Below, piece by piece: positions 44,375 to 53,528 of a DNA stretch of 64,000 bases (its first letter is position 1; every line of letters starts with the position of its first letter). Position numbers and translations under genes: made by a program. Under the pieces are notes generated by a model. That model made no database searches. It worked only from the letters and a program-made list of their open reading frames with translations, and was not told where the DNA came from. Origin of the DNA: Carnobacterium alterfunditum DSM 5972 (lineage in GTDB: Bacteria; Bacillota; Bacilli; Lactobacillales; Carnobacteriaceae); assembly GCF_000744115.1 (NCBI RefSeq), contig NZ_JQLG01000004.1:372001-436000 (forward strand). The letters are read 5' to 3'.

Positions 44375-45646
44375 TTAGCCTATCTTCTTTTCACGAGCTG
44401 GTTCTTCAACAAAATAAAGGACAGATCCTCCTATAATAAAGAGAATAATTAAAGCAAACACTCCGTTCAAGGAATTCCCCGTCGTTTGAGAGATGATACC
44501 AACTAACAAAGGACCAACAACGGCTGCAAATTTACCGAAAATATTGTAAAAGCCAAAAAATTCATTTGCATGTTGCTTAGGAATCAACTGTCCAAATAAC
44601 GAACGGCTAAGCGCTTGGATCCCGCCTTGAGCTGTTCCAACAAGCACTGCCAATGTAATGAAGGTCAATAATGAATCTAGCGTCAAAGCATAAATACAAA
44701 TGAAGGTATACGTAATGATTCCAACATAGATCATCTTTTTGTTGCCGAATCGACCAGCCAATATTCCATATATGATAGAAGAAGGGAAAGCGACAAATTG
44801 ACTCACCATCATCACCACGATCAAATCATTAGCTGCAAGTCCAATATCTGAACCAATAGCGGTCGCCATTTGGAAGATAGTACCCACGCCATCAATGTAA
44901 AAGAAATACGCGATCAAAAACAAAAAGACATTGCGGTACTGACGAACATTGTTAATGGTTTTCCATAACCTTAAGAAACTATTTTTAATGATATGCGGTT
45001 GTTTTTCAATATAGGTTTTTTGTTCGACATTTTTCCAATATGGAATCGTAAAGACCAACCACCACAGCGCCGTTGCTACAAATCCGCCTTTGATAAGAGC
45101 GCTTTGCGAAATGGGAAGAATACCGGTTAATTGAAAAAAAATAAAAATGACAAATGGAATCGAACTGCCAATATAGCCCCAACCATATCCGGCACTGGAT
45201 ATACGATCCATCCGGTTTAAGGTTGTAGAATCGACTAATGAAGCATCGTAAAAGATATTTGCTGCGCCATAACCAATCGAAGAAACAGCATAGAGAATCA
45301 ATAATAATAACCAATTTTCATTTGGAATAAATGCAAAACTAAGTGTTGCAATAATTCCCAGGCCGGTTGCTAAAGTGAACATCGGATTGCGATAACCTTT
45401 GTAATCAGCAACTGCTCCTAAAATGGGCGCTAATAATGATACAACCAAAGTCCCAATTGCGTTTGCATAGCCTAAATAAGCTGTCGAGTTTACTGCACTA
45501 ACGCCTGACCCTTCGGAAACAGCCTTGAAAAACAAGGGAAAAACAGCTGTCGTTACCATGATCGAGTAGGCTGAGTTAGCCCAATCTTGCAAGATCCAAC
45601 TCTTTTCAGACAGTGTATACTTAAATCGCTCTTTTTGGATTTCCAC
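44375..45646 (-). CDS. MFS transporter, Atg22/UMF1-like (YxiO type)
   Basis: 423-residue, about 12-span permease. The N-terminus EKSWILQDWANSAYSIMVTTAVFPLFF is the mark of the vacuole-effluxer/Atg22-like family, which exports amino acids in yeast; the bacterial substrate is unknown. GTG 45646 shares bases with the upstream stop (TAGTG) and has GAGGGG eight bases away, so coupling to the phosphatase gene is likely. Confidence 0.85.
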   Translation of the reverse strand: MEIQKERFKYTLSEKSWILQDWANSAYSIMVTTAVFPLFFKAVSEGSGVSAVNSTAYLGYANAIGTLVVSLLAPILGAVADYKGYRNPMFTLATGLGIIATLSFAFIPNENWLLLLILYAVSSIGYGAANIFYDASLVDSTTLNRMDRISSAGYGWGYIGSSIPFVIFIFFQLTGILPISQSALIKGGFVATALWWLVFTIPYWKNVEQKTYIEKQPHIIKNSFLRLWKTINNVRQYRNVFLFLIAYFFYIDGVGTIFQMATAIGSDIGLAANDLIVVMMVSQFVAFPSSIIYGILAGRFGNKKMIYVGIITYTFICIYALTLDSLLTFITLAVLVGTAQGGIQALSRSLFGQLIPKQHANEFFGFYNIFGKFAAVVGPLLVGIISQTTGNSLNGVFALIILFIIGGSVLYFVEEPAREKKIG

Positions 45647-46938
45647 TATTGGCACCCCTCTTGCTCAAATAAAATTTCTAACACTTCTCCATCAACTTCT
45701 GTCGGGAATTCAAGTCCTATCGCATGTAAAAAGGTAGGGCCTTCATCGATCAATCGAGCTGACGGTATGCGGGCATTGGCGTTGATCCCAGGACCTGAAA
45801 TAAATAAAGTCGTTTCATAATTCTCTTTTTTAGGACTATATCCATGTACTCCTTTATGAAATACTGACTTCCCATCTACCCCAATCTCTTCTAAAAATGG
45901 TCCATCACTTCCACTGACAAAATAGTACCCTCTCTTTGCTTCGACTAAAAAACTACAGGTATCGTCAGCTCCTAAACCAGCTGCTTCTTCTTGAGTATAA
46001 ATAGTCTCAATTTGTTCAGGATACCGTTCTAAAATGTTTTTTACATCAGCCAAATTCACTTCAGGTTTTGTATAGATATAACACGAGCCATCTGCTCCTT
46101 TAGCCAATACATCCCATTCTTGAATTGTTCCGTCCTTGTTTTCGCTTAACCAACCTTGCGTTTTGAACAGTTGGTTCAACCTCACAACGGTATGGGCATC
46201 TAGCTGATAATGATCTCCAAATAGCGCTAGCACAGTCTCTTCAAAAATCCCTTTTTCTTTCATCGCTGTGATAATTTGATTTAAGTGCTCATCCATTCGT
46301 TTAATAGCTGCCCTTGTTTCTTTAGTATCCACACCGAATCGATGTCTCGTGCTGTCTAGATCAACTAAATGTATTGCCATTAAATCAGGCTTCTTAGAAT
46401 GGATCGTATTGACGACCCCAGCAGTTAAGAAATGATCCAATGCTGGCTGTTTGATACCTTTACGTATTTTACCGAATTTACGTTCTAGATCAAAAATGAA
46501 TTTTGGCGATGAGGACCATAATGTAATAAGGCTCTGTGATTGCCAAGGTCGGTTAGCAAAAACTTCCGCAAAATTATAGTTTATAACTCTGCTTCGACCC
46601 GTAACGGGCCATAGAAAAGAAGCAATCGAGTACCCGGCTTCATGAGCAATATCAAATAGGGTGGGAACTTTAATATCTTTTGCATACCAGTGCCAATCAG
46701 GTGATTTTCTTTCAGGTTGTATATATGTATTATTCGTAATGCCGTGTTTTCTAGGATAAACTCCTGTTACAATAGTTGTATGGGCCATATAGGTCAATGA
46801 CGGATATATCGATTCTACTTTCTCTACTAAAGCACTGCGATCCAATAAGTATTTAAAGGTTGGCAGTGTACGGGCGTATGCTAAATCTTTTGCCCCAAAA
46901 GCATCTAAAGAAATGATATATAAACGCTGCTTCTTCAA
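45646..46938 (-). CDS. Alkaline phosphatase superfamily hydrolase (nucleotide pyrophosphatase/phosphodiesterase-like)
   Basis: 430 residues; metal-dependent phosphodiesterase fold: LYIISLDAFGAKDL (first Asp ligand), YPSLTYMAHTTIVTGVYPRKHGI (nucleophile Thr region), HLVDLDSTRHRFG, FGDHYQLD, and KGVHGYSPKKENYET (last His ligand). No signal peptide, thus probably intracellular. TTG start after AGGAAGAC. In an operon with an Atg22-like transporter; the two may handle the same metabolite, but that is only suggested by coupling. Confidence 0.88.
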   Translation of the reverse strand: MKKQRLYIISLDAFGAKDLAYARTLPTFKYLLDRSALVEKVESIYPSLTYMAHTTIVTGVYPRKHGITNNTYIQPERKSPDWHWYAKDIKVPTLFDIAHEAGYSIASFLWPVTGRSRVINYNFAEVFANRPWQSQSLITLWSSSPKFIFDLERKFGKIRKGIKQPALDHFLTAGVVNTIHSKKPDLMAIHLVDLDSTRHRFGVDTKETRAAIKRMDEHLNQIITAMKEKGIFEETVLALFGDHYQLDAHTVVRLNQLFKTQGWLSENKDGTIQEWDVLAKGADGSCYIYTKPEVNLADVKNILERYPEQIETIYTQEEAAGLGADDTCSFLVEAKRGYYFVSGSDGPFLEEIGVDGKSVFHKGVHGYSPKKENYETTLFISGPGINANARIPSARLIDEGPTFLHAIGLEFPTEVDGEVLEILFEQEGCQ

Positions 46939-47167: not shown

Positions 47168-48667
47168 GGCTGTATAATTTTTGGTGTGGATGAAGAAATT
47201 CATTCGCACCTATTTTTTTATAAAAAAATAGAAACAAATGAATTTTCCAGTTAGAATAAAGTCACGACAACCCACTAGAAAGGAAAATTCATATGTCTCA
47301 TAATAATTGTATCCGAACTGCACTTGATTTAAAAGATAAAAATATCTTTTTTGATGAAAAATTTTGCGAGGAGAAACGAATCAAAGGGTTCAGATCAAAA
47401 GTTTTCTATGCCACTTTAACGTACAAACCCACTCACTGTGAGTGTTGTGGGATGAAGAACCACGCCTACTCTATTGTAAAGAATGGGTATTTAACCTCTA
47501 GGGTTAAATGGGTCAGTTCGACTCATTATGCAACGTCTATTCGATTAAAGAAGCAGCGGTTTCTTTGTAGAGCATGCGGTGTTACCTTTGTTGCACGTTC
47601 TCCTGAAATTGAAGAAGGTTGCTTCATCGCTAAACGGGTCAAACAGTCTATCGCGGTTGAATTAGCCGACACTATTTCTATAAAAGACCTGTCTAAACGG
47701 CATTTTGTTTCTCCTACCACTGTAGACAGAGTCTTGAAACAACTCAATCAGTCTGTTAAAAATACCTTCAAATCCTTGCCGCAACACCTCTCTTTCGATG
47801 AATTTCAATCCGTTAAAAACGTCGAAGGAAAAATGAGCTTTATTTATTCGAATGCAGACACACATGAACCAATCGATATCTTGCCAACTCGGCTGCTACT
47901 AGCTTTACGCCGTCACTTTCTTCGCTATCCCTATAAGACGAGGATGAACGTAAAAACGATTGTCGTAGACATGAACGCGGCCTACTTTACATTAGTTAAA
48001 GATCTCTTTCCTAATGCTAAAGTGATCATTGACCGTTTCCATATCGTTCAGTTGATATCACGCTCGTTGAATCAAACCAGAGTTCAAACAATGAAACAAT
48101 TCCATACCTCTAATTCAGAAGATTTAAAGAATTACAGAAAATTTAAAAGGTACTGGCAACTCCTGTTAAAGGATTCAGACGACTTAAATTTTAAGGATTA
48201 CCGCTATCAACGACTCTTTAAAAAACCTTTACCGAATACAGAAATCATCGACTACCTACTTACGCTCGACGAGACTCTTAAAGCGACGTATGATTTGTAT
48301 CAAAATCTTCTTTATTATTCTAAAAAAAATGACTATAAAGGGTTTAAAGACCTTGTACTTAAGGCTTCTCCTAAAGAGTTATCTCCTTTTATGCAGACTG
48401 CCCTTAAAACCCTGCGTAAACACTTGCCTAGGATAAAACATACTTTTATGTATCCCTATTCTAACGGTGCTTTAGAAGGGTCAATCAATAAAATAAAAGT
48501 CATCAAACGGGTTGCTTATGGTTATCGGAATTTTCAGAACTTTAGATGTCGTATTTTGATTAGTTTTAAAGCAAAAAAAAGCAGCGCGAGAAGATTCTCT
48601 CACGCTGCTTAAACAAGACGTTATTTCCAACTAAATTTAGCTCATCCACACCATTTGACGTAGAGCC
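47168..48667 (+). mobile_element. ISL3-family insertion sequence, apparently complete
   Basis: 1,500-bp element bounded by 26-bp imperfect inverted repeats (47168-47193 and 48642-48667; both start GGCT and end GGTGTGGATGA, 18 of 26 positions equal). The 7-base sequence AAAATTA occurs on both sides (47161-47167, 48668-48674), close to the 8-bp duplication usual for ISL3. One transposase gene fills it. Confidence 0.88.
47293..48612 (+). CDS. ISL3 family transposase
   Basis: 439 residues. Zinc-finger-like CECCGMKN...CRACG at the N-terminus, helix-turn-helix (KDLSKRHFVSPTTVDRVLKQ, about 130-150) and DDE catalytic domain with SFDEFQSVKNVEGKMSFIY, TIVVDMNAAYFTLVKDLFPNAKVIIDRFHIVQ and the C-terminal GALEGSINKIKVIKRVAYGYRNFQNFRCRIL containing the Glu. 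Intact, with an AAAGGAAA ribosome site, so the element could be active. Confidence 0.95.
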   Translation: MSHNNCIRTALDLKDKNIFFDEKFCEEKRIKGFRSKVFYATLTYKPTHCECCGMKNHAYSIVKNGYLTSRVKWVSSTHYATSIRLKKQRFLCRACGVTFVARSPEIEEGCFIAKRVKQSIAVELADTISIKDLSKRHFVSPTTVDRVLKQLNQSVKNTFKSLPQHLSFDEFQSVKNVEGKMSFIYSNADTHEPIDILPTRLLLALRRHFLRYPYKTRMNVKTIVVDMNAAYFTLVKDLFPNAKVIIDRFHIVQLISRSLNQTRVQTMKQFHTSNSEDLKNYRKFKRYWQLLLKDSDDLNFKDYRYQRLFKKPLPNTEIIDYLLTLDETLKATYDLYQNLLYYSKKNDYKGFKDLVLKASPKELSPFMQTALKTLRKHLPRIKHTFMYPYSNGALEGSINKIKVIKRVAYGYRNFQNFRCRILISFKAKKSSARRFSHAA

Positions 48668-48700: not shown

Positions 48701-48733
48701 AAAAAAAAAGCACTGATAAAATCAGTGCTTTTT
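48701..48733 (-). terminator. Terminator of candidate small RNA
   Basis: AGCACTGAT-TTT-ATCAGTGCT followed by nine T on the minus strand; only a shorter T run follows in the plus direction. Confidence 0.9.
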
Positions 48734-48905
48734 CCGACAATATTCATTTGCATGAATAGGTCCCATGAATTCCACAAAACAGAGGGGTCCAAGCACCTGC
48801 ATCTTGCAGTTGTACCTAAGTACGGTTGTGCCCTGTCTAAAGTTCCAATCACTTGTCGCCGCAGCGAAATGACCGAAGTCACCTGATTGGAGGTCAACTC
48901 ATCGC
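48701..48905 (-). ncRNA. Candidate structured small RNA, about 205 nt
   Basis: A minus-strand promoter (TTGTAC-N17-TAAAGT), then about 170 nt of dense structure, then a terminator. Stem TCCAATCA/TGATTGGA (48884-48891 with 48844-48851) encloses two hairpins capped by C(UUCG)G (48870-48881) and C(UGCG)G (48856-48867) tetraloops. A second stem (GCAC/GTGC plus flanks) encloses hairpins at 48812-48823 (GUAC) and 48797-48809 (CUGCA). UNCG loops on the minus strand fix the orientation. No convincing coding frame. Not matched to 6S, SRP, RNase P or tmRNA by eye; a diverged 6S-like RNA is an alternative. Confidence 0.6.
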
Positions 48906-48913
48906 ATATATGT

Positions 48914-48942
48914 ACTTTACCATGTATATTCATCAAGTACAA
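48914..48942 (-). promoter_or_regulatory. Promoter of candidate small RNA
   Basis: TTGTAC (-35), 17-base spacer, TAAAGT (-10) on the minus strand, placing the RNA start near 48905-48907. Confidence 0.5.
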
Positions 48943-49110: not shown

Positions 49111-49536
49111 ATGAAAGAAGACGTTATCGTAAATTATTTGGATCGTCATGGTCTAGAAGCAAAAACAGGTAGCACTATTTTGGTTGAAAGAAAAACCCGG
49201 AATCGAAAATGGTACGCTGCTTTATTAGGTAAGAATGAGACTGAAAAAATTTACCTGAATTTTGGTAAAAAAGAATTCGTTATTTTGCCGCTTGTTCAAG
49301 ATTCTATGGCCCTTATTGAAGGTGACTATGCCCAAGTTCCTTTACTCGAAGTTAAATCAATCTATTTCAAAAAGCAACCTAACCATTATACTCTGATAAT
49401 CCAATACAATGACGCTACTGCTGACGATGATCGCATTAAAAAATACAAAGTACCTAAAGAAGTTGCTGATTCTCCATGGCACAAACAAAATCTAGCTAAT
49501 CTGATTGAACGCTATGGTTTAAAAGAACCTAAGTAA
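49111..49536 (+). CDS. Conserved-looking protein of unknown function
   Basis: 141 residues, soluble, mixed charge, ending KQNLANLIERYGLKEPK. Predicted as an alternating beta/alpha protein (VKSIYFKKQPNHYTLIIQYND suggests adjacent strands). I do not recognise a family. Its expression signals are excellent: AAGGAGG nine bases before ATG, a good promoter and a strong terminator, so it is a real gene. It is divergent from the candidate small RNA. Confidence 0.75.
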   Translation: MKEDVIVNYLDRHGLEAKTGSTILVERKTRNRKWYAALLGKNETEKIYLNFGKKEFVILPLVQDSMALIEGDYAQVPLLEVKSIYFKKQPNHYTLIIQYNDATADDDRIKKYKVPKEVADSPWHKQNLANLIERYGLKEPK

Positions 49537-51809: not shown

Positions 51810-51893
51810 TGCGGCCGAGAAGACTCGAACTTCCACGGGAGATCCTCCCACCAGCCCCTCAAGCTGACGCGTCTACCATTCCGCCACGGCCGC
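51810..51893 (-). tRNA. tRNA-Leu (anticodon GAG)
   Basis: 84-nt class II tRNA. Acceptor GCGGCCG pairs with CGGCCGC, discriminator A, long variable arm, T-arm with GTTCGAGTC. The anticodon stem TCAGC/GCTGG holds loop TTGAGGG, giving anticodon GAG (Leu CUC/CUU). 3' CCA is not encoded. Confidence 0.95.
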
Positions 51894-52121: not shown

Positions 52122-53528
52122 ATGGGAGTTCACCTAACAATGTTTGAAGAACAGAAATATAAGATCATAAAAAAAATAAGCAATGGACAAGTTTCCAAAA
52201 CTCGTGCAGAAGTCGAGTTAGCTCTATCTCGCAGACAAATTAATCGATTAATCCAAGTCTATCAGACAAAAGGAAAAAGCGGCTTTATACATGGGAATCA
52301 AAATCGGAAACCTTCTACTGGTTTATCAACTGAAACTAAGAAAAAAATTATTGCTCTTTATAACAAAAAATATGAAGCGTTCAACCTTACACATTTTACT
52401 GAGAAACTAATTGAAGTAGAAAAGATCCAAGTCTCATACACAACCGTACGGAACTTATTGCATGAAAAAAATCTTTTATCCCCACGTGCTTTTCGACAAA
52501 CAAAAAGAAAAAAGCGTAAAGAATTGCAAGAAAAGGAACAACATAAGCAGGTACTAACTAAAAAAGAGTGTCAGGTATTAAATGAATTGGATTATGTAGA
52601 TACACTGAAGGCTCACCCAAGTCGTTCTCGCAAGAAATACTGTGGCGAACAGCTTCAAATGGACGCTTCCTCTCATGATTGGTTTAAAAACGGGACATAC
52701 GCTCATTTACACGCCGCAATCGATGACGCAACAGGGCTTGTAGTAGGAGCCTATTTTGATAAGGAGGAAACGCTGGACGCCTATTATGAAGTAATGGAGC
52801 AATTTTTAACCAACTATGGTATTCCTTACGAAATTTTAACAGATAACCGTACGGTTTTTATCTATAAACAAGAAAAGCACCCCTCTGAAGAAAAGGATAC
52901 TTTTACACAATTTGGATATGCCTGCCACACTTTAGGGATAAACTTACGTACAACTAGTATCCCTCAAGCAAAAGGGAAAATCGAACGACTTTGGAATACA
53001 CTCCAAGATCGTCTCCTTCATGAAATGGCCTTATGTTCTATCCAATCAATCGATGAAGCAAATCTATTTTTGACGCATTACATTCCTACATATAATGCCA
53101 AATTTGCTTTACAGCTAAAGGATAGCAAAAGTGCTTTTGAAAAGCTACCAAAAACAGTCATTTTGAATCATATACTCGCTCGATTTTCACAACGAATTAT
53201 CCAAAAAGGTCATGGTGTGAAGTATCAAAATAAGCTTTATCGTTTGCATGATCAAAACCAGCAGGTTTTACTTACTCCAAAAACAAGCGTCTTGATTATC
53301 CATACAAAGGGAAATGAATTATACGCTAGCGTTGATAATTCGGTGTTTTCCTTACAAGAGATTTTATTACATGAAGAAGTATCGAAAGAATTAGATGCGC
53401 CTGTGAGAGCGAAAAAAACTCAGCTAATCATACCCTCCCTGTCTCATCCTTGGAGGAAACCTTCTTATGATCGTTATCTTAGAAATAAAAAACAAAAAGA
53501 AGCCTTAAAAAAGGGTACTTTAGTCTAA
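52122..53528 (+). CDS. IS1202-group (ISNCY) transposase
   Basis: 468 residues: N-terminal helix-turn-helix (VSKTRAEVELALSRRQINRLIQVYQ), then a DDE integrase domain with QLQMDASSHDWF (first Asp), TDNRTVF (second Asp) and AKGKIERLWNTLQDRL (Glu). The C-terminal part IIQKGHGVKYQNKLYRL resembles the family tail. GGAGTG lies before the ATG. Confidence 0.93.
   Translation: MGVHLTMFEEQKYKIIKKISNGQVSKTRAEVELALSRRQINRLIQVYQTKGKSGFIHGNQNRKPSTGLSTETKKKIIALYNKKYEAFNLTHFTEKLIEVEKIQVSYTTVRNLLHEKNLLSPRAFRQTKRKKRKELQEKEQHKQVLTKKECQVLNELDYVDTLKAHPSRSRKKYCGEQLQMDASSHDWFKNGTYAHLHAAIDDATGLVVGAYFDKEETLDAYYEVMEQFLTNYGIPYEILTDNRTVFIYKQEKHPSEEKDTFTQFGYACHTLGINLRTTSIPQAKGKIERLWNTLQDRLLHEMALCSIQSIDEANLFLTHYIPTYNAKFALQLKDSKSAFEKLPKTVILNHILARFSQRIIQKGHGVKYQNKLYRLHDQNQQVLLTPKTSVLIIHTKGNELYASVDNSVFSLQEILLHEEVSKELDAPVRAKKTQLIIPSLSHPWRKPSYDRYLRNKKQKEALKKGTLV

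Follow-up and report, generated by a model that had tools for sequence, protein, structure and literature searches.

The window analysed here, a 64,000-nt stretch of the Carnobacterium alterfunditum DSM 5972 genome, carries on its minus strand a gene for an RNA of about 206 nt (48906 to 48701), which has its own promoter and is terminated. The 5' end of the RNA falls at 48906 or a few bases away, and the transcript runs into an intrinsic terminator with nine T. Directly past this terminator lies an ISL3-family transposase gene (Pfam DDE_Tnp_ISL3, 47293 to 48612). In same-genus relatives, a phosphodiesterase gene (45646 to 46938 in the window) starts approximately 0.3 to 0.6 kb after the RNA start, and the ISL3 element was therefore probably inserted here recently. 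A divergent gene encoding 141 amino acids (49111 to 49536), with no Pfam match, is kept near the RNA in ten Carnobacteriaceae genomes; a second transposase/integrase-like ORF (52122 to 53528) and a tRNA-Leu(gag) gene (51810 to 51893) lie about 5 kb or less from the RNA gene. Regulation of a neighbor in cis was considered and rejected, no gene being consistently adjacent across families. The features of the locus are as follows:

48914 to 48942, minus strand: sigma-A-type promoter, TTGTAC (48942-48937), a 17-nt spacer, and TAAAGT (48919-48914), with extended -10 TG-G (TGG)
48701 to 48906, minus strand: complete RNA of about 206 nt, assigned to Rfam family RF02840 (Ref68/Lacto-3)
48893 to 48906, minus strand: single-stranded leader at the 5' end, UGCGAUGAGUUGAC, antisense to 23S GUCGGCUCAUCGCA (E. 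coli 2505-2518, 5' strand of H90)
48845 to 48890, minus strand: P1 domain, outer stem CCAAUCA/UGAUUGG bearing two hairpins, one with a UUCG and one with a UGCG loop; all pairs covary (helices 1 to 3)
48736 to 48837, minus strand: long-range helix P2, GACAG (48837-48833) with UUGUC (48740-48736), enclosing P3, P4, and P5 (helix 4)
48792 to 48832, minus strand: P3, GGCAC/GUGCU with P3a (GUAC/GUAC) and the conserved P3b (CUGC-AAGAU-GCAG); covaries (helices 5 to 7)
48759 to 48790, minus strand: P4 hairpin, GGACCC/GGGACC, displaying the antisense loop; covaries (helix 8)
48771 to 48776, minus strand: P4 loop UGUGGA, antisense to 23S UCCACA (E. coli 2473-2478, H89 tip), a kissing-loop candidate
48741 to 48758, minus strand: P5 hairpin, UAUUCA/UGAAUA; 94.7% of cells paired, covaries (helix 9)
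48701 to 48733, minus strand: intrinsic terminator AAGCACUGA-UUUU-UCAGUGCUU-U9, read from the sequence, with equivalents in homologues

An initial annotation of this DNA had described a standalone, structured small RNA on the minus strand beside an ISL3 element, and in this it was right. The promoter it gave, TTGTAC-N17-TAAAGT, is present and has in addition an extended -10; the strong T9 terminator is there as hairpin plus T9 at 48733-48701; and its two branched domains correspond to P1, whose hairpins have UUCG and UGCG loops, and P3, which carries the GUAC and CUGC stems. The extended -10 (TGnTAnnnT) was found 5' of 89 of 105 homologues, where it begins at a fixed spacing of 13 to 14 nt 5' of the conserved leader. 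As that annotation had also said of coding potential, no conserved reading frame was found in the RNA; a conserved small protein was rejected, since overlapping ORFs are restricted to close relatives and track the RNA. What did not stand were its descriptions of the RNA as unassigned and, as main alternative, 6S-like.

The RNA is real, yet it already belongs to a family. A cmscan search of Rfam 15 matched RF02840 Ref68/Lacto-3 at 66.2 bits (E = 8.5e-12), well above the gathering score of 44, over 48767 to 48906 and the full model (positions 1 to 124 of 124), an outcome that the annotation had itself named as one that would overturn its reading. Known as Enterococcus sRNA 68 or Lacto-3 RNA, the family shares sequence and structure with the RNA described here and occurs in single copy across Lactobacillales. 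The Rfam model ends within P4 and lacks the long-range P2, the complete P4, and P5. Its entry gives no function, and no published function was found for the family in the open-access literature, where text searches for "Ref68" or "Lacto-3" returned no relevant paper and Ref68 goes unnamed in the maps and Grad-seq papers on E. faecalis/E. faecium. Identity with E. faecalis ef0869 was rejected because ef0869 is ref19C.

That the RNA might be 6S-like has next to nothing in its favor beyond a comparable size, a single copy, and a high degree of structure, and we give it a negligible probability. 6S RNA (RF00013) is likewise a structured small RNA of the abundant type, but it is a different family: the Rfam scan gave no RF00013 match at this locus, and the true 6S RNA of the genome lies elsewhere (G000:C4:1984715-1984902, 71 bits). 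In place of a rod with a central bubble, moreover, the fold has a leader, P1, and three hairpins enclosed by P2.

The Rfam model matched 147 of 295 sampled Lactobacillales genomes, with one copy in each. Two covariance models of our own, R1 (covering 48734 to 48906 of the window) and R2, matched 101 and 186 genomes, respectively; with the models combined, at least 197 of 230 genomes across seven Lactobacillales families were positive, the RNA being single-copy. No match was found in the 65 sampled genomes of two further families of the order (f7 and f8), and when 399 genomes from across the class were searched, all matches fell within Lactobacillales. The family is thus dispensable for ribosome assembly in general, as it is missing from f7, f8, and other Bacilli. 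Streptococcus loci were retrieved by the leader pattern and then confirmed with R2, the 23 named homologues scoring 37 to 57 bits versus 15 to 17 for four chance matches. One genome has two adjacent RNA pieces (L111, G001:C34:1500-2500), one of them without the 3' domain, which may reflect a duplication followed by decay.

The predicted fold has an energy of -67.7 kcal/mol compared to a shuffle mean of -51.6 (z = -3.6) and was equaled by 1 of 200 shuffles. Its architecture comprises a free leader, P1, the long-range P2 enclosing P3, P4, and P5, and the terminator; across homologues, P1 is either a single hairpin or a stem bearing two. R1 was used to realign 85 homologues, 84 of them distinct, which represent about 50 genera, and covariation was scored on the result. 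It is seen in each of the nine helices: 91.1% of cells are paired, the covariation score is 0.58 over the 84 distinct homologues, and double-sided changes occur in 47 of 47 pairs, so that the RF02840 helices are backed by compensatory changes, counts that the realignment favors because it was fitted to the structure. Controls slid by one to three columns, which correct for this in part only, gave covariation of at most 0.10, and 0 of 500 shuffles reached the observed value. In P2, 84% of cells are paired and every pair shows double-sided changes. Compensatory changes are also seen in the raw sequences of several helices, for example in P2 (GGTAG/CTACC, GCGG/CCGC, and GACAG/CTGTC). Little emerged from plain RNAalifold when divergent members were aligned with MAFFT, and model-based realignment was needed. 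The two stems that the initial annotation had singled out for a test of compensatory change, in P1 and P3, both show it; helix P2 and hairpins P4 and P5 had escaped it, as had the most informative feature of the RNA, its complementarity to 23S rRNA.

This complementarity involves two unpaired elements, the first of which is the 5' leader. Its sequence, UGCGAUGAGYYGA, is nearly invariant among homologues, and in C. alterfunditum it forms 14 continuous pairs, two of them G-U, with 23S positions that we take to be the 5' strand of H90 (E. coli numbering was checked on the rrlH sequence). A search of this genome for the leader's 13-nt target, with R allowed at both wobble positions, returned the eight 23S genes and, besides them, nothing but the complementary strand of the sRNA gene itself. 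In 12 of 12 genomes scanned, the site was the best in 23S (-23 to -26 kcal/mol), the next-best 23S site being about 8 to 10 kcal/mol weaker in nearly all of them. The leader duplex, at approximately -24 kcal/mol, is likewise stronger than the runner-up across the entire rRNA operon (-17.5) and than any duplex obtained with 60 shuffled leaders (-21.3 at best). Where the leader carries C in place of U, 23S has G2513, as seen in family f2 and again separately in genus g58, the latter noticed after the g58 23S had been read. Since a leader U can pair with 23S A or, as a wobble, with G, the covariation test is weaker for the leader, and its independent pairs are not significant. Some f4 genera have the leader GAGGCGA, with one mismatch to 23S.

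The target strand has a partner within 23S: positions 2507-2517, in the 5' strand of H90, can pair with 2567-2581. Pairing with the leader is the stronger (-22.4 versus -14.9 kcal/mol for the H90 strands alone), and a bound leader would therefore block H90 until displaced. Such an imbalance, together with the choice of two sites in the catalytic core, is what might be expected of a ribosome-silencing RNA that invades the peptidyl-transferase center of free or stressed 50S subunits to inactivate or store them. We consider this unlikely, if the most serious of the alternatives, as the target strand is buried in the folded 50S and the promoter is strong and constitutive looking.

A quite improbable alternative is that the RNA guides or recruits an rRNA-modifying or -processing enzyme near 2498-2504 or on H89. 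The end of the leader duplex does adjoin positions 2503 and 2504, which are modified in E. coli, but the bacterial enzymes for these positions are known as protein-only and synteny links no partner gene to the RNA. Neither does the RNA have snoRNA architecture: unlike in box C/D RNAs, the 5' leader is unpaired and the 3' end is an intrinsic terminator, with no terminal stem, and the order leader-P1-P2[P3,P4,P5]-terminator, with a U run as 3' end, is not that of an H/ACA RNA.

The second element is the P4 loop. Across the family its sequence is UGUGRA(C), the complement of 23S (G)UYCACA at 2472-2478, which lies 26 nt upstream of the leader's site. In all 40 genomes compared, the loop follows 23S position 2474, with GG accompanying C2474 (24 genomes) and AA accompanying U2474 (16 genomes); a further 21 of 21 genomes obey the same rule, for a total of 61 of 61, the P4-loop copy having been picked by eye where the motif occurs twice in a genome. 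Among 1,924 variable 23S columns, only 2474 fits the loop at 100%, the runner-up reaching 78%. On a 23S tree built without this region, loop and 2474 change together on six branches, and the switch was made three times within family f9 alone (genomes G142, G240, and G226). Independent pairs agree in direction throughout (six pairs on the best tree, 4 of 4 on well-supported branches), although with just four of the six co-changes on well-supported branches a sign test on those cannot reach 0.05. In one of the 21 added genomes (G282), 23S UUCAC was predicted from the sRNA alone, by its loop GUGAAC, and then found. The energy of the loop interaction is insufficient to single out the H89 site, and the case for H89 thus rests on covariation, not on energy.

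A third rRNA contact, between a GGAU in the P3b loop and 23S AUCC, was dropped because the loop varies (CGGAU, CGUAU, CGCAU, and AAGAU) without matching 23S change. P3b (48797 to 48809) has a conserved small loop of the CGNAU, AGGA, or AAGAU type that does not track 23S and may serve in protein binding or a tertiary contact. The Streptococcus versions (L059, L166 to L179, and L191 to L217) are strongly shortened, with P1 a single small hairpin and P3 short. They retain the leader and a GUGAAC loop, making the two rRNA-pairing elements the most conserved parts of the RNA.

Sequence comparison thus establishes the RNA, its fold, its complementarity to 23S rRNA, and the covariation between the two, and what is new here is that both conserved unpaired elements are antisense to the 23S peptidyl-transferase center. 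On this evidence the RNA almost certainly pairs directly with 23S rRNA; none of the alternatives listed accounts for the covariation of loop and 23S without such pairing.

We propose that this is a housekeeping sRNA that pairs in trans at the peptidyl-transferase center and acts as a placeholder or chaperone in 50S assembly, a statement that, taken as a whole, is probably correct. The assembly role as such we regard as reasonably likely. The RNA most likely binds nascent 23S, in unfinished 50S particles, since leader pairing excludes H90. There, the free 5' leader would cover the 5' strand of H90 (2505-2518) while the P4 loop would kiss the H89 tip (2472-2478), so that the H89-H90 region of the catalytic core would not fold prematurely. 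Closure of the peptidyl-transferase center would be delayed until domain V is ready and the RNA then released, presumably displaced by helicases or GTPases when its place is taken by the 3' strand of H90 (2567-2581); this release step, like any protein partner, is something we infer. Lactobacillales would then possess, as seems on balance somewhat favored, a ribosome-dedicated, single-copy trans-acting RNA that is the counterpart, not the homologue, of the assembly snoRNAs, clamping the H89 tip and an H90 strand and so timing the folding of the peptidyl-transferase center.

To our knowledge, bacterial ribosome assembly is thought to use proteins only, with no trans-acting, rRNA-pairing placeholder RNA known. 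None was found in the open-access literature; an earlier report elsewhere is possible. If true, the proposal would provide a function for an Rfam family without one, as well as a nonessential, genetically simple system in which to study how RNA may assist folding of the ribosomal catalytic core, and sRNA knockouts such as that of SSRC21 (see below) would need a different reading. The covariation itself makes a clean, directly testable claim, 23S C/U2474 with loop GG/AA.

Among characterized RNAs, SSRC21 of Streptococcus pyogenes is very probably the homologue in that species, as judged from a primer and a neighboring gene. According to the accessible portions of the report on it (PMC3675131), SSRC21 (SR914400 in an earlier study cited there) was mapped by circular RACE, and the primer used for its deletion contains the family leader GTATGCGATGAGTCGATTG. 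The gene next to SSRC21 carries a cardiolipin synthetase annotation and corresponds to the PLD-domain gene that precedes the RNA in S. uberis, and a cardiolipin synthase neighbor is common to SSRC21 and the homologues in S. uberis, S. catagoni, and S. didelphis. SSRC21 is abundant in the exponential and early stationary phases and drops strongly in late stationary phase; the deletion mutant is viable, 142 transcripts change, and those portions of the report describe neither a ribosome defect nor a search for one and propose no rRNA link, SSRC21 having been studied as a regulator of mRNAs (PMC3675131). The altered transcripts would suit an ordinary mRNA-regulating sRNA, its match to rRNA being incidental or serving as a decoy. 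This, too, appears improbable, as a ribosome defect would also fit broad transcript changes, a near-invariant leader and an rRNA-tracking loop would not be expected of such a regulator, and the leader's target is confined to 23S genes in the C. alterfunditum genome. The growth-phase profile and the deletion are, short of proof, more readily reconciled with a growth-linked ribosome factor than with a storage factor.

For the proposed placeholder function, parallels come from outside bacteria. U3 and other assembly snoRNAs act in eukaryotic or archaeal RNPs, U3 having the small subunit as its target; they would share with the RNA described here the holding apart of rRNA strands by a trans-acting RNA during assembly. 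The closest working parallel is, by analogy, the yeast snoRNA snR190, which has two elements antisense to 25S rRNA, for which no methylation was detected, and which has been called a placeholder (PMC8536666). It differs from the RF02840 RNA in its unrelated sequence and fold, in being a nucleolar C/D snoRNP, and in its sites, H73 and domain I versus H89/H90 (PMC8536666). Both RNAs nevertheless have a pair of elements antisense to rRNA of the large subunit, with domain V among the targets (at the root helix H73 in snR190) (PMC8536666), and it is the leader and the P4 loop that would supply the two elements of the proposed snR190-like, rRNA-pairing assembly chaperone in Lactobacillales.
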